IMG/VR virus record: IMGVR_UViG_3300040856_003829
Location: 1 to 64,000 of that record
Length of the DNA: 64,000 bases
Strand: one strand, 5' to 3'
Source: a virus
How positions within the stretch are numbered: position 1 is the stretch's first letter; the number at the start of each line of letters is the position of its first letter. The notes beneath the pieces were generated by a model. It ran no database searches. It was not told where the DNA came from and was given only the letters and a program-made list of their open reading frames with translations. Shown piece by piece: positions 758 through 44,126 of this stretch. A program made the translations under genes and the position numbers.

Positions 758-3700
758 ATGAGATATCTTATATCACTATCTTTTTTTTTAATCAGTATGA
801 TTGGACTTGGTCAACCAACTTACTTAGATCTTTTTATACAATTTGACCAATACCCGTCTGAAACTTCTTGGTTAGTTACTTCAGGAAATGATACTATATA
901 TTCTAGTCCCAGTTATGATTTCCAAGAGTATGTTAATAGTACTGTAGAACAACGTTTATTTTTAGAATCGGGAGTAGAGTATAAATTTTACATGAATGAT
1001 ACATTCGGAGACGGAATTTGTTGTGATTATGGTCCTGGATATTTTACTCTAGAAAATGAATGTCAAGGTCTTATCGTTGAAGACCTTGAATTTGGTCAAA
1101 ATTCAATAGACTATTCATTTACTTTATCTCCTTGTATTCCAGAGATACCAACTGCTAATGTTTTATTTAGAGTAGATTTGGCTAACGCCCCTCCTTCAAT
1201 AGGAACTCCGGGTGTTTTAGGTAGTTGGAATGGTTGGCAAGTGATTCCAATGACTTATGATGAAAATGAAGAATGGTTTTTAGAAGTTGAAGTACCATTA
1301 GGAAACCATCTATGGAAATTTGCCGATTTTAACGATCCAAATATTCAAGAATTGCCTGTCGGAATTGATGGTGGTTCTTGTTTTTTATTTGATGGTAATG
1401 GATTCGTAAATAGAACTATAAACATAACTTCAGAAGAACAAGTGATTCTTCCCCCTTATTGTTGGGAATCATGTTTACCCTGTGGGGGTATAGCAGGGTG
1501 TTCTGACCCAAGTGCCCCTAACTGGAATCCTTGGGCAAATTTTGACGATGGTTCTTGTGTATCACAAAATATAGAATGTGCCCCTGGTGAGTCAGTACTT
1601 GAAATAGTAGTAACACCTGATAACTTTGGAGGTGAAACAAGCTGGTTATTATATGGACCTGGTGATCAAGTATACGCTACAGCACCCGCAGGTACTTATG
1701 CTGGATCTCCTGCTGGTGTTCCTATATCAACCGAAGTATGTGTTACTACAGGAGGTGAATATGACTTAGTTATAGAAGATTCTTTTGGTGATGGTTTATG
1801 TGGTCCTTGTGCTACTAATAATCCTAACCTTGTTACAGGTAATGTTGAAATTTTAGATTGTGATGGAGAAGTATTATGGAGTCTTTTAGACGAAAAAGAA
1901 GATGGTAACTTTGGATACAACATAACTTCAGCTTTAGTTTCCCCTTCTACTTCCTGTGGGTTAATATCAGTAATAGCAGGATGTACTGACCCAGCTTATG
2001 TTGAGTATAACCCAGAAGCTACTACTTTTTTAGCAGGGTCATGTGTAACACCTGTAGTAGTAGGTTGTACAGATCCTACTCAATTCAATTTCAACCCTGA
2101 AGCTAATACTGAAGAAATTATAGAATCTTGTGAGTTTACTTTGACTATTAAAGATGGTGTAGGTGATGGTTGGTTTGGGAGTTGGTTAGGAATATATCAG
2201 CTCGGTACAATATTTAATTCACCCCAATACCAAATGGGTCCTAATGATGGTACCGAATTATCATTTGATATATCTGGTTTAGATGCTACTCAACCTGCAT
2301 ATTTTTACTTTTTTGTAACACCTCAATCTATAGGAACAGCCCAACAGTGTGGGTTCACTTTAACTAACTCTAATGGTGATGTTATCATCGATGTTCCTTT
2401 CTTTAATATAATTCCTTTCATTAATGAAAGTGGTTGGTATAGGTATGAAGTAACTCCTTACTGTGGTAATACTTGTATTCCTTACATAGAAGGATGTACA
2501 GCCCCAGCAGCAATTAATTATAATGATGAGGCTAACACTAATGATGGTAGTTGTATATACTTCCCAGGATGTACTAACCCTGCATATGTTGAGTACTCTG
2601 AAGAGGCTGATGTAGATGATGGTTCCTGTTCAACATTAGTCGTATTTGGTTGTACAGATCCGGATGCTTTTAATTTTGATGAAGAAGCAAACACAGATAA
2701 CGATGGTTGTATTCCCAAAATATTTGGTTGTACTAATCCATTAGCTTTTAATTTCGATCAGAATGCAAACACTCCTGACGGATCCTGTATTGCAATTCAA
2801 GAGGGTTGTACCGATCCCTCAGCATTTAACTATGAAGAAAATGCGAATACCGATGATGGGTCATGTGTTGAAGTAATTTTTGGTTGTACATTAGATGGAT
2901 CATTTAATTTTGATCCTTTAGCTAATACAGATAACGGATCATGTATACCTAAAGTTTTAGGTTGTATGGATGATACCGCATTAAACTTTAACCCAGATGC
3001 TAATATAGAAGATGGTTCATGTATTACTGCAATCTATGGTTGTACAGATTCAACAGCATTTAACTACAACGAACTAGCGAATGTCGATAATGAATCTTGT
3101 ATTGAAGTAATAGAAGGGTGTATGGATCCATTAGCGTTAAATTTTGATCCATTAGCGAATGTAAACAACTTTGAATGTACAATCCCTGAATATGGGTGTA
3201 CAGATCCAACGGCGTTAAATTTTAATGAATTAGCGAATGTTGATAACGGAACATGTATTCAAGTTGTTGAGGGTTGTACTAACCCTGAGGCTTTGAATTT
3301 TGATGAAAGTGCTAATGTAGATGACTTTAGTTGTATACTTCCGATTTACGGTTGTACTGACCCAACAGCTTTCAACTACAATGAATTAGCAAATATCGAT
3401 AATGATTCTTGTGAAGAAGTAGTGGAAGGTTGTACTGACCCTGAAGCGTTGAATTATAACGAACTGGCTAATGTTGATGACTTCAGTTGTATATTACCTA
3501 TATATGGTTGTACAGACCCCGAAGCGTTCAACTTTAATGAATTAGCAACTGTAGATAATGGTACTTGTATAGAAATTGTAGAAGGATGTACTGATCCTTC
3601 AGCTTTTAACTTTAACCCGGAAGCAAACACTGAAGACTTTAGTTGTGAACCATTCATTTACGGCTGTACAGACCCACAAGCTGCTAATTATGATGAAGAA

Positions 3701-5439: not shown

Positions 5440-5744
5440 AATTAAACGATGACACTAGTTTTGGAATTAATATTAAATGGTTAATTCAAATTATTGTTGG
5501 TGTAGGAGGAGCAGTTTGGTTGTATTTTACAATTATGTCTGCTCTTACCCATCTAGAAATGGAAACTCTGAGGCATAATCAAGAAATAGAACTTAATTCA
5601 GAATTTCGTATTAAATGGCCAAGAGGTGAAATGGGCTCACTTCCCGATGATGCTGAACAAAATTTAAGACTTAATCATTTGGAAAGAGACATAGAACATC
5701 TTGAAATATTAGTTGATGAATTAAGACAAAAAAATTGTGAATAA
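5436..5744 (+). CDS. Single-pass membrane protein, paralogue of the first gene
   Basis: 102 aa. The N-terminus LNDDTSFGINIK precedes one transmembrane helix (about residues 14-33) and a long charged helical tail (LNHLERDIEHLEILVDELRQK) likely to form a coiled coil. It matches the 94-aa protein at 113-397 in architecture and in the TSF...IK motif. It overlaps the holin candidate by 4 nt, consistent with a joint membrane or lysis function, which remains an inference. Confidence 0.65.
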   Translation: MKLNDDTSFGINIKWLIQIIVGVGGAVWLYFTIMSALTHLEMETLRHNQEIELNSEFRIKWPRGEMGSLPDDAEQNLRLNHLERDIEHLEILVDELRQKNCE

Positions 5745-6000: not shown

Positions 6001-6180
6001 TTATGAACTGACTCGTTCTGGTGATCCACTATTTGACCACTTTTTTGAATTCGATCTAATGATCGAATCTATGTTTAATTTGTACCTAACATGATTATAA
6101 ATATCAAATTGAAAGTCTTTTTTCGATAAAAATAAGATTTTCCTATCGAAAATCTTTGAAACAAAATCTACAAACTTCAT
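6001..6180 (-). CDS. Small hypothetical protein (59 aa)
   Basis: A 59-codon frame, ATG at 6180 and TAA at 6001-6003, beginning MKFVDFVSKIFDRKILFLSK and ending SPERVSS. The N-terminal half is amphipathic and basic. It shares strand with, and lies just upstream of, the zinc-finger-like gene, so the two probably form an operon. No homologue recognised; the call rests on position and intact frame. Confidence 0.45.
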   Translation of the reverse strand: MKFVDFVSKIFDRKILFLSKKDFQFDIYNHVRYKLNIDSIIRSNSKKWSNSGSPERVSS

Positions 6181-6292
6181 ATTTTTATAGTTTAAATTGT
6201 ATTCAATAAAGATAAATTAATTTTACCAATAAAACAAATTTATTATCTAAATATTTATTTTTAACCATAAAAAATTAAATTTAAAATAAAAA

Positions 6293-6480: not shown

Positions 6481-8346
6481 ATGGGAAAAGTTATTGGAAT
6501 TGACTTAGGAACCACTAATTCATGTGTATCAGTCGTTGAAGGTGGTGAACCTATTGTTATTGTAAATAAAGAGGGAAAACGTACAACCCCTTCAATCGTG
6601 TCTTTCAAAGATGGTGAAAGAATTGTAGGTGATCCAGCTAAAAGACAATCAGTTACAAATCCAGAAAATACTATCTATTCAGTAAAACGTTTCATTGGTA
6701 GTAGTTTTAAAGAGGTGTCTAGAGAAGCTAAGAAGATGCCATATAAAGTTGAAAAGTCTTCGAAAGGTTCCGTGAATCTTGTCATAAACGATAAGAACTA
6801 TGTTCCACAAGAAATTTCTGCAATTGTACTTCAAAATCTAAAAAAGACTGCTGAAGATTATCTAGGTGAATCGGTAACACAGGCAGTAATTACTGTACCG
6901 GCTTATTTCAATGACGCACAAAGAAATGCGACTAAGGAAGCTGGTGAAATTGCAGGGTTGGAAGTTTTGAGAATTATCAATGAACCAACTGCAGCATCCC
7001 TTGCTTACGGTTTAGGTGATGATAAAGATCGTAAAGTTGCCGTTTATGATTTGGGTGGAGGAACTTTCGATATTTCTATTTTAGAAATGGGTGACGGAGT
7101 TTTCGAAGTACTCTCGACAAATGGTGATACTCATCTGGGTGGTGACAACTTCGATGAAGTTATTATCGATTGGTTGATCGAAGAATTCAAGAAAGAAAGT
7201 GGGGTTGATGTATCGTCTGACTCAGCTGCATTACAAAGACTAAGAGAAGCCGCTGAAAAGACTAAGATCGAACTATCTTCTACCAGTTCTTCTGAAGTTA
7301 ACTTACCTTATCTTTCAGCCGATCAATCCGGACCAAAACACTTGGTCAGAACGATCAAAAAAGCTGAATTCGAAAGAATGATTGAGTCTTTAGTTAAAAA
7401 TACTATTTCACCTTGTCGTAAAGCATTGAAAGATGCTAAATTGAAAGTTTCCGATATTGATGAAGTAATCTTGGTCGGAGGGTCTACTAGAATTCCTGCA
7501 ATTCAAGAGGCTGTAGAAAAGTTCTTTAAAAAACAACCTTCTAAGGGAGTAAATCCTGATGAGGTAGTTGCTATGGGTGCTGCGATCCAAGGAGGTGTAT
7601 TGGCCGGTGATGTAAACGATGTTCTCTTGTTGGATGTTACACCTTTATCACTAGGTATCGAAACACAAGGTGGAGTCATGACTAAACTTATTGATTCGAA
7701 TACAACGATTCCTACGTCTAAATCACAAACATTTTCAACAGCAGTAGATAATCAACCAACTGTTGACATTCATGTATTACAAGGTGAAAGACCTATGGCT
7801 ATGGATAATAGAACACTAGGTAGATTTCAGTTAACTGACTTACCACCTGCACCTAGAGGTATCCCTCAAATCGAAGTAAGTTTCGATATAGATGCTAACG
7901 GTATCATTTCAGTAACTGCAAAAGATAAGGCCACAGATAAACAACAAAATATTAAGATTGAATCTGGAAGTAGTCTTTCTGATGAAGAAATTGAAAGAAT
8001 GAGACAAGAAGCTTTGGAAAATGAAGAATCCGATAACCAAAAGAAACAAGAAGTTGAAAAGTTGAATATGGTTGACAGTACTATTTTCCAAACTGAAAAA
8101 CAAATTTCAGAATTCGATGATAAATTGACTGAAGAAGATCGTGAATCTTTGACTGCTAAACTTGAAGAGTTAAAAAAGGTTTATGAAGAAAAGGATTTCG
8201 AAAATATGGATGATTCCCTACAATCATTAAACGAGACATGGGCTGGTATATCTACTAGATTGTATCAAGAGACATCATCTGATGAGACTGAAGATGTTGA
8301 TGATGTAGAGACTACCGATGTCGAAGTAGAAGAAGTAAAAGAATAA
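6481..8346 (+). CDS. dnaK: Chaperone DnaK (Hsp70)
   Basis: 621 aa, close to full bacterial length. The ATPase domain is complete: [11 protein letters not shown] phosphate-1 motif, [11 protein letters not shown], the [11 protein letters not shown] adenosine region, [12 protein letters not shown] phosphate-2, and [12 protein letters not shown] substrate-binding domain follows ([14 protein letters not shown], helical lid) with an acidic C-terminal tail ending EVEEVKE, resembling the bacterial EEVD-like tail. It should act in the cytoplasm with DnaJ and GrpE, neither of which is encoded in this window, so host partners are probably used. DnaK is uncommon in phage genomes. A 62-aa membrane protein follows after 3 nt. 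Confidence 0.97.
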
Positions 8347-10744: not shown

Positions 10745-10884
10745 TTTGTTGTTAGTTCTTCTTCAATAATATCAATAATTAAATTGAAAATCAAATCTTC
10801 ATTAGAATTTTCGATAAATTCATGATTAAATGATTGAATAGAACTATTCAACTTTTTTTTGATATTTTCTCTATCTAACTTCAT
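10723..10884 (-). CDS. Small hypothetical protein overlapping the tRNA-Ser 5' end
   Basis: A 53-codon frame from ATG at 10884, starting MKLDRENIKKKLNSSIQSFN and with an acidic helical C-terminal half (LIFNLIIDIIEEELTTKEDC). Its last seven codons plus stop run into the tRNA-Ser gene, which is unusual. Its ATG overlaps the TGA of the upstream 37-aa frame (ATGA), supporting translational coupling. It may be a chance frame. Confidence 0.35.
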   Translation of the reverse strand: MKLDRENIKKKLNSSIQSFNHEFIENSNEDLIFNLIIDIIEEELTTKEDCQSG

Positions 10885-10994
10885 ACAAAATTGAAAATTA
10901 AATTGATGATGATCATTAAGAAAATACCCACAAAACCTACAAACGTCATCTTATTACTAAATTCTGTTTGACTTTTTCGTCTACCTTGATTCAT
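10881..10994 (-). CDS. Very small membrane protein (37 aa)
   Basis: ATG at 10994, TGA at 10881-10883. A basic N-terminus (MNQGRRKSQTEFSNK) followed by one hydrophobic helix (TFVGFVGIFLMIIINLIFNFV). The basic-then-hydrophobic design and the ATGA overlap with the next frame support a real gene, but length is too small for certainty. Confidence 0.4.
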   Translation of the reverse strand: MNQGRRKSQTEFSNKMTFVGFVGIFLMIIINLIFNFV

Positions 10995-11007
10995 ATAACA
11001 AATATAA

Positions 11008-11454
11008 TCAATTATTCCTAGAATTACTACTATTTCTTGGTTTTTTTTCTACCGATGGTGAATTAGGTCTCGTTGTAGACCCCACACCTCTCTGTCCGTT
11101 TATATCTCTTGTCTTATATTCATTTGGACCTAAAGTATTACCATATTGATCTTTATTACGACTATTTTCAATATTTTGACCAGACCAAATAGATGGTCTT
11201 TTAGATATTGTAACGTTTTGAGGTTTCGTTTCAGGATTTATATAGTAATAATTGTATTGGTTTCCATAATAAGGGGTAAATCTATTATAACCCCAATAAT
11301 ATGGTGATACATTGTTACCACTATTGTCAAAAAATGTGTAATTATTTGGTAAATCACAATTAAAATCAGAGTATAATTCGTCACATTGATAAGTCATCAA
11401 TTCAGGATTTATACATCCAATCAGTAATGGAAATAAGTAAAATAGTTTTTTCAT
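11008..11454 (-). CDS. Putative lipoprotein, Asn/Tyr-rich
   Basis: 148 aa. A lipoprotein signal ([14 protein letters not shown]) gives a lipid-modified Cys at residue 14. The mature part is rich in Tyr, Asn and Pro ([20 protein letters not shown]) with a disordered basic tail. It overlaps the stop of the giant Cys-repeat protein upstream by 4 nt, so it is likely made with it and displayed at a membrane. No family recognised. Confidence 0.6.
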
Positions 11455-17370: not shown

Positions 17371-17988
17371 TTACCTTTTAAAATCAGATCTATTACCAAG
17401 ATCCTTTATTTCTTTATTCGAATAATAACTAGACTCTGATTCGTTTTGAATCAATGAATTATCATAGGCATATTCTATTTTACTTATAACGTCTTTGAAT
17501 AGTAACCAACCATAATCAAGCGATTTACGATATACGTCACCAACTTCTTCTATTTCTGGGTATATAGGATAGGTAAGTTTTCCGATTATAGGTCCATCAT
17601 CGATTCCTTCCGTTATTTCATGGATTGTTATTCCATGATATCTCTCATTATTTTTGAGAGCCCAATTTATAGGTCTCACACCTCTATACTTCGGAAGAGG
17701 TGCATTATGTAAATTTATAATTTTTTCACATTTATCGATAAACTCTTTTTTGATTATTTTACCATAAAAAATTGAAATACCTAAATCGAATTTATGGTTT
17801 TCGTCTAAATCTCTAAAATCTCCTGATTCTATGTAAGGTACTTTATTTTCTATACACCAATTTTGTAAAGATCCTGTCCATGTCGGTTCAGGTTTATCAG
17901 GTATGACTAAAGATAGATTAAAGTTTTCTTTACAGTATTCGGCAACTTTAATACTCAAATCACCTTTACCTAATAATACTACATTCAT
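17371..17988 (-). CDS. Formyltransferase (methionyl-tRNA / sugar N-formyltransferase fold)
   Basis: 205 aa. The core of the formyl-transfer domain is present: IINLHNAPLPKYRGVRPINWAL with the catalytic Asn-x-His, then YHGITIHEITEGIDDGPII with the conserved Asp. This is the single-domain form lacking the tRNA-binding C-terminal domain of Fmt, and it lies inside a nucleotide-sugar operon, so a sugar amine is the likely substrate. N10-formyl-THF would be the donor. It overlaps the glycosyltransferase stop by 4 nt. Confidence 0.87.
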   Translation of the reverse strand: MNVVLLGKGDLSIKVAEYCKENFNLSLVIPDKPEPTWTGSLQNWCIENKVPYIESGDFRDLDENHKFDLGISIFYGKIIKKEFIDKCEKIINLHNAPLPKYRGVRPINWALKNNERYHGITIHEITEGIDDGPIIGKLTYPIYPEIEEVGDVYRKSLDYGWLLFKDVISKIEYAYDNSLIQNESESSYYSNKEIKDLGNRSDFKR

Positions 17989-18764
17989 AATAATTCTATT
18001 TTACTTTTTATTAAGTTAATCCACCAATTACAATCTAACATTTCTTTATTAAAAGTTTTTTCTTTTAATTTTTGAATTTCATTTTTTAAATACTCTAAAT
18101 CACTTAATTTTTGTATATCTTCGATTAAAATAACTGGAAAATTATGATGGAGTCTATCATACATAACCTTATTAAAGGTTAATGGAATTCTATCCATGTA
18201 CAATGCTTCATATATCCTATGATTGTCTCCTGGACCATTGCCTTGTGCACATACAATTAATTCATAATCAAGACATGTATCAAAAAAATCCTCAACAGAT
18301 AAGTTAGGCTCCTGCCAATCAATAAAATCAGTATTTATACTTATGGATCTTACAGAATTTCTATGGTGTGGATTTGTATTGACTCTAAAATTCGAATACG
18401 CAAATTTTGACGGATCTCTAAAGGGTTTATTGGAGATAAATTCATCTTTAATTTTAACTCTTTCATACCCTATACCATGACCAGGTCTCTTAGAAAATTC
18501 ATAATTTTCAATACCTAGGGGTAATGTTATGACTCGTTCATCTTCAACTAAGGCATTCTGTGCAAACCAAAACTTAACATTTAAGGGTAAATTATTAAGA
18601 ATATTTCGATCAATAACATAATCTGAATTTCCAGATATTAAAATTACATTATGACTTAAGGTTTTTATGTATTCAAAATCAGATTGTAAAAAATCAGTTT
18701 TACAAAAAAAAACTTTTACTCCGTCATGTAAATCAGAGAATTTATTAATTTGTATTGTATTCAT
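17985..18764 (-). CDS. Exostosin-like glycosyltransferase
   Basis: 259 aa from the ATG at 18764, chosen because it begins 2 nt after the stop codon at 18766, whereas the longer start overlaps the upstream gene by 29 nt. The C-terminal half has ELIVCAQGNGPGDNHRIYEALYMDRIPLTF, typical of the nucleotide-sugar-binding part of exostosin/GT47-like enzymes (G-x-D-x-H-R-x-E-A-L...P). The N-terminal half contains Rossmann-like strands (NVILISGNSDYVI). It would transfer the sugar made by its neighbours to a glycan; acceptor unknown. Confidence 0.7.
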   Translation of the reverse strand: MNTIQINKFSDLHDGVKVFFCKTDFLQSDFEYIKTLSHNVILISGNSDYVIDRNILNNLPLNVKFWFAQNALVEDERVITLPLGIENYEFSKRPGHGIGYERVKIKDEFISNKPFRDPSKFAYSNFRVNTNPHHRNSVRSISINTDFIDWQEPNLSVEDFFDTCLDYELIVCAQGNGPGDNHRIYEALYMDRIPLTFNKVMYDRLHHNFPVILIEDIQKLSDLEYLKNEIQKLKEKTFNKEMLDCNWWINLIKSKIELL

Positions 18765-18765
18765 G

Positions 18766-19389
18766 TCATACTCTTTCGAAAACAGCGAATCCATTTCTAT
18801 CGTTGCTCTTAATTATACAATTTAACGTGTCATCATTATCACACTCGTATAATATTTTACTTGTCTTATCAACCTTAGTATCATCAAGTAACACAATTTT
18901 AAATTTCTCTTTTAATAATTCCCATTCTAGATAAGTTGCAAATTCACCACCATCTAAAAGTATTAAGTCATAATCTTGTATAATTTCTTCTGATATATCT
19001 GGGCAATTATCATAATCTAACATATCATTGTTATGCCATGTAAGTTTCTGACCTTTTAAGTTCAAGGTATCAACATATTTCAAATATTGATCCTTATCTA
19101 TAATTCTACCAAATTTCAGAGTAACATGTTCTTTGAAATCTTTCAAATTATTCTTAGCAATCTCGAAAAAGGTTTTATTAGTTTCTAAACTGATAAAAGA
19201 TGGGTTATAACTAGGATCTTCATTTTTTACTGACATGATACCATCAATGAAACATTTTGTAGATCCCAATCCTTTCCATGTTCCGATTTCTAATATTTTC
19301 AATGGTTTTTTTTCTTTAACCATTTGAATAATAATATTTCCAAAACCTGTATCTGGTTTTATTTGTCCTTGAACTCCTGAAGTATCCAT
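18766..19389 (-). CDS. Class I SAM-dependent methyltransferase-like protein
   Basis: 207 aa. The SAM-binding motif I appears as KILEIGTWKGLGSTKCF at about residue 31, followed by the acidic strand SFISLETNKTF and the motif IV-like YDLILLDGGEF. This layout matches Methyltransf_24-type enzymes found in glycan clusters. It is the first gene of the sugar operon and follows a small lipoprotein gene after 2 nt. Substrate (sugar hydroxyl or peptide) is not known. Confidence 0.75.
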   Translation of the reverse strand: MDTSGVQGQIKPDTGFGNIIIQMVKEKKPLKILEIGTWKGLGSTKCFIDGIMSVKNEDPSYNPSFISLETNKTFFEIAKNNLKDFKEHVTLKFGRIIDKDQYLKYVDTLNLKGQKLTWHNNDMLDYDNCPDISEEIIQDYDLILLDGGEFATYLEWELLKEKFKIVLLDDTKVDKTSKILYECDNDDTLNCIIKSNDRNGFAVFERV

Positions 19390-20268: not shown

Positions 20269-20282
20269 TTCATAAAATTTAG

Positions 20283-20355
20283 TAACCCCGCTGGGATTCG
20301 AACCCAGGACCCTCTCATTAAAAGTGAGATGCTCTGCCAGCTGAGCTACGAGATC
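20283..20355 (-). tRNA. tRNA-Lys (TTT)
   Basis: D arm GCTC...GAGC, anticodon loop CTTTTAA on stem TCTCA/TGAGA, and T arm CTGGG-TTCGAAT-CCCAG. The acceptor GATCTCG/CGGGGTT contains several G-U pairs and is weaker than in the other tRNAs. Confidence 0.9.
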
Positions 20356-20364
20356 AGATCCGCC

Positions 20365-20600
20365 TCCCTACAACACCTTACTCATATCGTAAGAATATTA
20401 TAGGGACACTTACATTCGTCCAATGTCAAGGAGTTTAGTTCTGTTCAGGGTGACTAAACGCACCCCACTATCTGACGGTAACTTACCAACATACCGACTC
20501 GTGCCGTATGTGTCTGAAATTACTCGTGAGATAGGTTTCCCATCCATGGGCGATTAGACCCTGATGGTAGTTACATGTTGACTAATCTCATGTAACAGCT
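20365..20600 (-). ncRNA. Structured non-coding RNA with an H-type pseudoknot
   Basis: No credible gene lies here, but the DNA is less AT-rich than its surroundings and full of complementary segments. There is a 7-bp hairpin (GTTTAGT 20433-20439 with ACTAAAC 20453-20459). A three-way junction is closed by CTATCT/AGATAG (20468-20473, 20529-20534) and holds hairpins GGTAA/TTACC and ACATAC/GTATGT. An H-type pseudoknot follows (GATTAG 20552-20557 with CTAATC 20582-20587; GTTACATG 20570-20577 with CATGTAAC 20589-20596). The strand is assumed from the flanking tRNAs. It matches no RNA family I can name. Confidence 0.5.
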
Positions 20601-20602
20601 TG

Positions 20603-20683
20603 TGGGGGTAGATGGACTCGAACCACCGATGTCAGAGACGGCTGATTTACAGTCAGCTGCAATAGCCACTATGCGATACCCCC
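20603..20683 (-). tRNA. tRNA-Tyr (GTA)
   Basis: Acceptor GGGGGTA/TACCCCC, anticodon loop CTGTAAA on stem GCTGA/TCAGC, and a class II variable arm as expected for bacterial tRNA-Tyr. CCA not encoded. Confidence 0.94.
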
Positions 20684-20690
20684 TAGAAAA

Positions 20691-20816
20691 GGTCAGACAA
20701 TACTGGAGACGGGCCCAGTGAACCGAATACACGTACTCGGAAGGGCCTTTTTACTCACAAGTAAAGTCTGACCTGTTTTGGTATTGAACTTCAATACCGG
20801 CGTTTTCGAGTCGCCT
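20691..20816 (-). ncRNA. Structured spacer RNA between tRNA-Tyr and tRNA-Thr
   Basis: An 8-bp stem GGTCAGAC/GTCTGACC (20691-20698, 20766-20773) closes a loop that contains a nested hairpin GGCCC...GGGCC with CCGA/TCGG inside, and a second hairpin TTTACT/AGTAAA. Two more hairpins follow, GGTATTGA-ACT-TCAATACC and GGCG/CGCC. The spacing is not that of a tRNA and no TTCGA T-loop is present. Confidence 0.45.
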
Positions 20817-20819
20817 ATG

Positions 20820-20892
20820 AGCCACCAATAGGACTCGAACCTACGACCTGCTGATTACAAATCAGCTGCTCTACCAACTAAGCTATGGTGGC
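20820..20892 (-). tRNA. tRNA-Thr (TGT)
   Basis: Acceptor GCCACCA/TGGTGGC, anticodon loop TTTGTAA on stem GCTGA/TCAGC, and T arm GTAGG-TTCGAGT-CCTAT. CCA not encoded. Confidence 0.94.
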
Positions 20893-20974
20893 ACACTAGT
20901 CTAAGACCTAACGTTGTGCTAATCCGGACCCATTTTAATACGATTGAGTCAACACGCTCACCTCACACGCAACT

Positions 20975-21217
20975 TTAAGATACGTTTGTAAGTCGATTTT
21001 CTAACTTATCCAGTCTTGAATCTATTGTTCTGTAAATTTCAGTGATCTCACCATCAATATTATGTCTAAATGAAGACATCTCATTATCGAAATTTGATGA
21101 ACTAAAATCAAAACTGGTTTGAAAATCTCTGAGTTCTTTCTTTAGTTTGAACACACCAACGACTGAGTATAAAAACCCAACCGATACTATACCCAAAACA
21201 AAATACAAAAATTCCAT
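20975..21217 (-). CDS. Small membrane protein with coiled-coil tail
   Basis: 80 aa. An N-terminal helix (FLYFVLGIVSVGFLYSVVGVF) is followed by a charged helical tail (LKKELRDFQTSFDFSS, GEITEIYRTIDSRLDKLENRL) likely to be a coiled coil. It resembles in design the membrane/coiled-coil proteins at 113 and 5436 but without clear sequence match. It lies inside the tRNA array, with structured DNA downstream in its own direction. Confidence 0.6.
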   Translation of the reverse strand: MEFLYFVLGIVSVGFLYSVVGVFKLKKELRDFQTSFDFSSSNFDNEMSSFRHNIDGEITEIYRTIDSRLDKLENRLTNVS

Positions 21218-21349
21218 GTGTTTTAAATTTTAAGGTTTATAGATGGAGAATTAGGTGAAGAGATAAGTCAGTCTCTTAAGTACGTCCAACTTTATTTTTT
21301 TCAGGTAACATACATCCGGAATACAAGAGAGTTGTTAACTCCGCATATT

Positions 21350-21584
21350 TCACGTTCATGTCCACTTCACAGGTGTTGGCAAACCTGATTGAAGTTCACT
21401 GAGTCAGACAGTAGACTTTTAGTGTCTCGTACAACTACATTTTTAGAATGCCCACAACAGAAAATAACGCTCGTTATCCCTGAAGCTACAATACTAAATA
21501 TGTATGCCTTATCCCCCTGTCCAAGGGATTATTCAGCAACACCCTCCCGTGCGTGATCAGCGCGGTGGGATTTACCTCCATTTG
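21350..21584 (-). ncRNA. Structured spacer RNA between a membrane-protein gene and tRNA-Ile
   Basis: The 367-bp gap 21218-21584 holds no gene. It contains a long hairpin (ACTTCA-cAGGT ... ACCTg-TGAAGT, 21364-21395), a two-part hairpin (CACT-AGTC ... GACT-AGTG), a short TAACG/CGTTA hairpin, and a multibranch element closed by CTGAA/TTCAG (21480-21484, 21532-21536) holding ATAC/GTAT and ATCCC/GGGAT hairpins. Nested complementarity over such a length argues for an RNA product. Family unknown. Confidence 0.45.
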
Positions 21585-21658
21585 TAGGGACGGAGGGACT
21601 TGAACCCCCGACCTTGACTATATAAGAGTCCTGCTCTAACCAACTGAGCTACATCCCC
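21585..21658 (-). tRNA. tRNA-Ile (TAT)
   Basis: Acceptor GGGGATG/CGTCCCT, D arm GCTC...GAGC, anticodon stem GGACT/AGTCA with loop CTTATAT, and T arm GGGGG-TTCAAGT-CCCTC. The UAU anticodon is rare in bacteria, which usually read AUA with a lysidine-modified CAU tRNA. It would serve the AUA-rich genes of this phage. Confidence 0.9.
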
Positions 21659-43739: not shown

Positions 43740-43740
43740 G

Positions 43741-44126
43741 TGGAGATGCTGGGCCTCGAACCCAGGTCCTGATTGTCCCAAACAGAAAGGACTACACGTT
43801 TAGGTCATTATTGATTCTCAACAATCCGAAATAGGTGATTGAATTTTTACATCCTCCGTCACCAATAGATGTATGACTCAATTTAGGGTTTAGTCATTTC
43901 TCCACCACAACAACGGACTTCTGTTCATAGGTACATGTCCTGACCGACCCGCTGGATACGTCGCCTTAGGCTGCGTATACCTCTTCAGTACGGATCAAAC
44001 CGAGAGTCTGAAGTTTTGCGAAAGTTTCGCCATTTGTGTTTTGAAACCGTGGATTAAAGTGATAGGTAACCTCTCACTACGTGCCCTTTGTGACTGATGA
44101 CACCAGTCAAATCCATAATCATCCCC
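43741..44126 (-). ncRNA. ssrA: Transfer-messenger RNA (tmRNA) with a long predicted tag
   Basis: 386 nt. The 5' end GGGGATGATTATGGATTTGA matches the conserved tmRNA start. The 3' end has the T arm CTGGG-TTCGAGG-CCCAG and acceptor CATCTCC, pairing with GGGGATG at 5'. CCA is not encoded. The best tag frame begins GGC GAA ACT (Gly-Glu-Thr, as in known Bacteroidota tags) and runs 21 codons to TAA: GETFAKLQTL, then GLIRTEEVYAA. The stop lies in a hairpin (GGTATACGCAGCC-TAA-GGCGACGTATCC) like helix 5 of other tmRNAs. A second frame (AKLSQNFRLSV) fits less well. It would rescue stalled ribosomes and tag products for proteolysis; a ClpC-like unfoldase is encoded nearby. Confidence 0.92.

Follow-up and report, generated by a model that had tools for sequence, protein, structure and literature searches.

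Phage T4 carries two annotated small stable RNAs, rnaC and rnaD (species 1 and 2 RNAs), inside its tRNA cluster. The large phage RNAs GOLLD and ROOL are often found near tRNA islands, and in some cases the linkers of GOLLD contain tRNAs (PMC12286853). manA RNA (RF01745) is classed as cis-regulatory and as a riboswitch candidate (PMC2864571). Here, we analyse three spacers of a phage tRNA array that hold an RNA related to manA (RNA A), an RNA from a small family that appears to be new (RNA B) and a candidate structured RNA (RNA C). Our main reading, to which we give a probability of about 60%, is that the spacers of the minus-strand tRNA operon contain individual genes for small non-coding RNAs, which would be released by tRNA maturation.

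The tRNA array and its spacers

The window, the 64,000-nt stretch of DNA analysed here, is taken from a 96,160-base IMG/VR virus record, itself partial. Named from their sequences, the proteins of the record include a phage terminase, portal-like and capsid-like proteins, DnaK and products of sugar genes, together with many Bacteroidota-style secreted proteins; the phage is Bacteroidota-type. The minus strand carries all tRNAs of the record and a phage-encoded tmRNA (window 43740-44126, minus strand, tag GETFAKLQTLGLIRTEEVYAA). In transcript order, the segment of interest reads tRNA-Ile, spacer A with an 80-aa ORF, tRNA-Thr, spacer B, tRNA-Tyr, spacer C and tRNA-Lys (Table 1). RNA A starts 2 nt past the 3' end of tRNA-Ile, the 3' end of RNA B directly abuts the 5' end of tRNA-Tyr, and RNA C starts directly at the 3' end of that same tRNA.

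A preliminary description of positions 20365-21584 had reported dense complementarity without genes in three spacers. We find this complementarity on the minus strand, which is also the strand of the tRNAs; the stretch as a whole is not one gene-free block, because tRNA-Tyr, tRNA-Thr and the 80-aa ORF lie inside it. The spacers had also been called less AT-rich than their surroundings, and their G+C content is indeed 0.42 (A), 0.47 (B) and 0.45 (C) compared with 0.23-0.31 in the window's other tRNA spacers, which have ordinary folds (z -0.6 to -1.5). An Rfam scan at the database's own cut-offs returned tRNAs and the tmRNA only. Searching each spacer by blastn against 50,697 phage records gave tRNAs and chance matches and nothing more, and a search for relatives through the neighbouring gene at 17985-18794 found none. 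The Thr-Tyr spacer also holds a perfect palindromic hairpin, GGTATTGAACTTCAATACC; four related records have short matches to it at the corresponding position (E 0.03-0.16).

Table 1 Positions of the RNAs, tRNAs and other features in the window.
Feature	Position	Strand	Basis or context
RNA A, expanded manA-like RNA, ~340 nt	21242..21581	-	Homologues, covariation, outermost helix P0 AUGGAG/CUCCAU
manA-like 5' core of A: hairpin P1 with loop CUGAUCA; GCUGAAUAA - hairpin - UAAGGC	21506..21570	-	Rfam match; cyanophage manA with same loop and core
P2 5' strand of A, GGGUG	21544-21540	-	
3' end of A: terminal hairpin AAGAGA/UCUCUU and P2 3' strand CACCU	21253..21277	-	Comparison with L252, L246, L351
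RNA B	20684..20776	-	11 distinct family copies, leave-window-out profile, pair counts, z -6.3
Candidate RNA C: two hairpins with complementary loops, long irregular hairpin, H-type pseudoknot	20433..20601	-	z -3.1
tRNA-Ile	21584..21658	-	Upstream neighbour of A
tRNA-Thr	20819..20892	-	Upstream neighbour of B
tRNA-Tyr	20602..20683	-	Between B and C
tRNA-Lys	20282..20355	-	Downstream neighbour of C
80-aa ORF, predicted membrane-anchored coiled-coil-like protein	20975..21217	-	Starts 24 nt past A
19-nt perfect palindromic hairpin	20780..20798	.	Thr-Tyr spacer, between tRNA-Thr and B

RNA A and its relation to manA

A permissive Rfam scan gave one lead, a full-length match to manA RF01745 at 21565-21401 with 19.5 bits (E 3.3e-4 for the record). 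The gathering cut-off of RF01745 is 55.2 bits, and A is therefore classed as manA-like and not as a member of the Rfam family. In viral contigs, most hits of a gapped DNA pattern combining the loop and the core were genuine manA copies, in which the spacing hardly varies. The hits included a close match to the window's A type (L252/L313/L246), and a 3' motif added L351. With the window spacer as sole query, nhmmer found L252/L313/L246 in other phage contigs at E 1.3e-11 to 7.5e-10, and the L252 match (E 1.3e-11) spans positions 18-351 of the 366-nt A spacer.

RNAalifold on the window sequence together with L252, L246 and L351 yielded 87 pairs, 30 with compensatory changes. For 81 of these, the consensus pairs compared with controls, pairing holds in 95.9% of cells, and both sides have changed in 28 pairs, compared with 8.5 in shuffles (0/500 as high) and 2-3 in a slid alignment; these controls are flattering, because the alignment that is tested also supplied the structure and represents few lineages (about three). 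The long-range helices can also be checked by eye. P2 is GGGUG/CACCU in the window and GAGUG/CACUC in L252, L246 and L351, and in the same three sequences the terminal hairpin AAGAGA/UCUCUU is replaced by GGAAGG/CCUUCC. Among the homologues, the long-range helix GUACG/CGUAC appears as UGAGC/GUUCA, and the outermost P0 as AGGAGU/ACUUCU and GCUGU/ACAGC. Folding energy is weak (z -1.6 to -2.0 versus shuffles), and the consensus fold differs from the energy minimum of the window sequence itself. Judged from the aligned homologues, RNA A is a genuine structured RNA with a conserved fold. A multibranch element had been proposed at 21364-21536; the homologues support the element, but together with the long-range helices they set its extent at 21581 to 21242, about twice as long. 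The earlier borders cut off both ends and miss the long-range helices.

The likeness to manA lies in several parts. In cyanophage copies the manA core is CUGAAUAA - hairpin - UAAGG, and A has GCUGAAUAA..UAAGGC, with a flanking pair AC/GU that varies compensatorily to GC/AU. Both RNAs have a 5' hairpin, and the exact loop CUGAUCA of A occurs in some cyanophage copies. Both are carried by phages, and both have a closing helix P2 whose 3' strand is immediately preceded by a hairpin, but in A this helix, again following the 5' hairpin, encloses a much longer domain. Whereas manA is about 200 nt long, A is about 340 nt, with an additional outer helix P0 and an additional 3' domain. The central AGGUGGUGCU segment present in cyanophage manA is missing from window A, L252 and L351, and A, unlike manA, is located in a tRNA array.

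Between the two forms stands a bridging group (L340, L341, L343 and L344), in which L340 reaches 57.3 bits and so exceeds the Rfam cut-off. The pattern of this group picked out 11 stretches in viral contigs, 7 of them genuine by eye. A slightly stricter version, searched against the genomes of 84,980 bacterial and archaeal species, found none, so the bridging manA-like type looks phage-borne. A search for manA in terminase-related records gave nothing above chance.

Given the cis-regulatory classification of manA (PMC2864571), A could act in cis as a leader of the 80-aa ORF and control it in the riboswitch-like manner suggested for manA, with B and C as separate elements. Such a role is conceivable, since only 24 nt separate the end of A from the ORF, a leader-like position that is the counterpoint to the explanation we prefer. 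In L252 and L351 an ORF starts some 40-50 nt past the RNA, and in several cyanophages a gene start lies close after manA. However, the downstream genes share nothing evident across the copies, and the gene that A would control has relatives in L013 and L228 without A in front. The upstream side also argues against a leader, since a tRNA lies directly before A and cyanophage manA copies begin 26-88 nt past a stop codon. The neighbours of A in the window, tRNA-Ile before it and the 80-aa membrane-type ORF after it, include no metabolic, nucleotide or photosynthesis gene. Taken together, we consider a leader function to be on the unlikely side.

The genes that precede manA in cyanophages (loci L232-L240) are very different from each other and include gp23, ferredoxin, regA and pstS, among others. 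Such variety is difficult to reconcile with a single metabolic riboswitch. The 80-aa ORF, for its part, has relatives that are likewise located within tRNA arrays of other phages (L013-L016, L228).

RNA B, candidate RNA C and other spacer RNAs

RNA B combines a closing helix GGUCAGAC/GUCUGACC, a helix GGCCC/GGGCC and an apical hairpin CCGAGUA/UAUUCGG with two asymmetric internal loops. Its minimum free energy lies well below that of shuffles for both the 93-nt core (z -6.3) and the entire spacer (z -5.5). The multi-hairpin element previously outlined at 20691-20773 corresponds to this RNA, and its closing stem, GGTCAGAC (20691-20698) with GTCTGACC (20766-20773), is exactly as given there.

A model built from B alone weakly matched (E 0.5) a tRNA-array spacer of the related phages L014/L015, which follows the architecture of B segment by segment with different helix letters. 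A motif search found copies in additional related phages, and a profile brought the family to 11 distinct copies. When the profile was built without the window, window B was its top outside match at E 0.035, with the next at 8.7 (about 8 Mb searched). The family core GGSCCY-UU-CC..GG-6 nt-GGSCC and the closing helix are both present in window B. In the alignment, which captures the longer closing helices of the window and L013/L014 only in part, both sides have changed in 5 of the 8 closing-helix pairs and 2 of the 6 GGSCC-helix pairs. All 11 copies were found in gaps of phage tRNA arrays, and nowhere else, with differing flanking tRNAs; 10 lie between two called tRNA genes and the remaining one (L361) abuts tRNA-Glu.

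The Rfam search for B gave no match, and a DNA search of terminase-related records turned up neither B nor C. Single-sequence models of the two RNAs, searched record-wide, gave no matches either; for B this silence is not evidence, as the method also missed the known relative L014. Matches labelled R1 (18 bits, three related records) lacked the core in the one that was inspected. Sequence comparison thus indicates that B is a genuine member of a small RNA family that has no Rfam entry and is apparently undescribed. The same word had been applied to all the elements beforehand, and it fits A only in part, given its relation to manA. We picture B as rod-like and specific to tRNA arrays, and it probably serves to bind a protein or a second RNA.

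RNA C is less secure. Its minimum free energy has a z of -3.1 for 169 nt (0/200 shuffles as low) and -3.3 for the entire spacer. The spacer holds an H-type pseudoknot at 20465-20433 (GGGTG/CACCC with GTTTAGT/ACTAAAC) and two hairpins with complementary loops (GATTAG/CTAATC), but 7-nt H-type pseudoknots occurred in 20/300 shuffles and 6-nt loop-loop pairs in 144/300, so neither feature, taken alone, is beyond chance. The minimum-energy fold contains a long irregular hairpin. Of the pseudoknot next to a three-way junction proposed at 20433-20596, the pseudoknot sequence is thus present, although near chance by itself, and the junction is uncertain. Homologues of C were found neither by blastn (phage records) nor by nhmmer (about 4 Mb of loci) nor by covariance search (about 2.4 Mb), with many tRNA arrays of related phages included. 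Several structured RNAs had been suggested for this array; covariation in homologues bears this out for A and B, and C, which is predicted to be structured, stays a candidate.

B and C might be mere structured spacers that prevent tRNA misfolding or guide precursor processing and have no function after excision. B does occupy an inter-tRNA gap, its GC-rich rod would insulate the neighbouring tRNAs, and some other spacers of related arrays are structured too. Against this, many other spacers are short or unstructured, and the B core (GGSCC-UU-CC..GG-nnnnnU-GGSCC) is conserved across phages despite different flanking tRNAs, which exceeds what an insulator needs. We regard a spacer-only role as unlikely.

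The tRNA arrays of related phages hold further RNAs. A second covarying spacer RNA (ACACAUAAACUUCGG..CCGAAGAGUGUGU versus GACGAUAAACUUCAG..CUGAAGAGUCGUG) occurs in L360 (about 5648-5740), L361 (about 2114-2200) and L378 (about 3032-3125). In L229, an RNase P-like RNA lies directly before tRNA-Arg (10863-11125, plus strand; RF00373, 34 bits versus a cut-off of 84, E 2.6e-6) and is possibly a phage-encoded RNase P RNA, and a freshwater-1 RNA follows tRNA-Tyr (6877-6939, plus strand; RF02979, 69.1 bits, cut-off 72). In L228, a tRNA-like 3' half comes after a group I intron (3443-3630, plus strand; RF00028, 67.8 bits), and the intron may split a tRNA gene.

Proposed release from the tRNA precursor and known counterparts

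The preliminary description had left two options: the elements could belong to a single RNA that assembles with the tRNAs, or they could be several separate RNAs. A, B and C do share one strand and one array, and tRNAs sometimes lie within GOLLD linkers (PMC12286853). However, A and B are each closed by a helix of their own, other phages have A without B and C, related phages have B without A and C, and the record has no GOLLD or ROOL match. A single assembled RNA is thus very improbable.

The explanation we favour is that of separate RNAs freed from a tRNA precursor. The tRNA operon would give a single precursor transcript, and the cleavages of tRNA maturation would free the spacer RNAs as well. 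Because their ends are paired, A and B should be shielded from exonucleases. A is found beside unrelated neighbours, and the differing contexts of A and B point to independent RNA genes. We infer that tRNA maturation is the likeliest release route and that stable RNAs released from the tRNA precursor are the best account of A, B and C. By analogy with T4 species 1/2 and GOLLD, the RNAs may be co-transcribed with the tRNAs, excised and stable, and may have a role in the phage takeover of translation. More tentatively, and with the odds against it, Bacteroidota T4-like phages could possess an exchangeable kit of small structured RNAs in and near their tRNA arrays (B-family, manA-like, GOLLD and tRNA-like RNAs with inserts), freed by tRNA maturation and jointly acting on the translation machinery of the host or counteracting anti-tRNA defences.

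Of 49 further phage records searched for GOLLD, 35 gave strong matches, mostly in relatives of the window phage. A covariance search with its model (RF02032) found no GOLLD in the 96-kb record and no match to A, B or C, and one with the ROOL model (RF03087), run without a positive control, found no match in the record; the preliminary description had likewise been unable to match the elements to either RNA. With no Rfam match to any of these RNAs in the spacers, we reject A, B and C as GOLLD, ROOL, RNase P or group I intron, and with no T-arm in any of them we also reject tRNA remnants. At about 260-340 bits, GOLLD is nearly universal in this phage group, and in L378 (10159-10564) it adjoins a phage tmRNA. 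Tracts between the tRNAs of related phages also contain tRNA-like RNAs with large inserts and a normal T-arm end (L359 2260-2376, L358 3322-3445, L368 about 6083-6255 and L378 about 3125-3280), which recall T4 rnaC.

The two T4 RNAs are close counterparts in placement. Like A, B and C, they are non-tRNA small RNAs within a tRNA cluster and on the same strand as the adjoining tRNAs. T4 rnaC ends in a tRNA-like T-arm, whereas A, B and C do not, and comparison of rnaC and rnaD with A, B and C by sequence and model gave no match. The B family adds an RNA that is tied to phage tRNA arrays and lacks an Rfam entry. RNA A extends manA from a marine-cyanophage riboswitch candidate to a broader phage RNA class that includes an expanded form, with neighbours unfit for a metabolic riboswitch. 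Together, A and B provide defined RNAs for the old question of what the non-tRNA RNAs in phage tRNA clusters do, alongside T4 species 1 and 2, GOLLD and ROOL.
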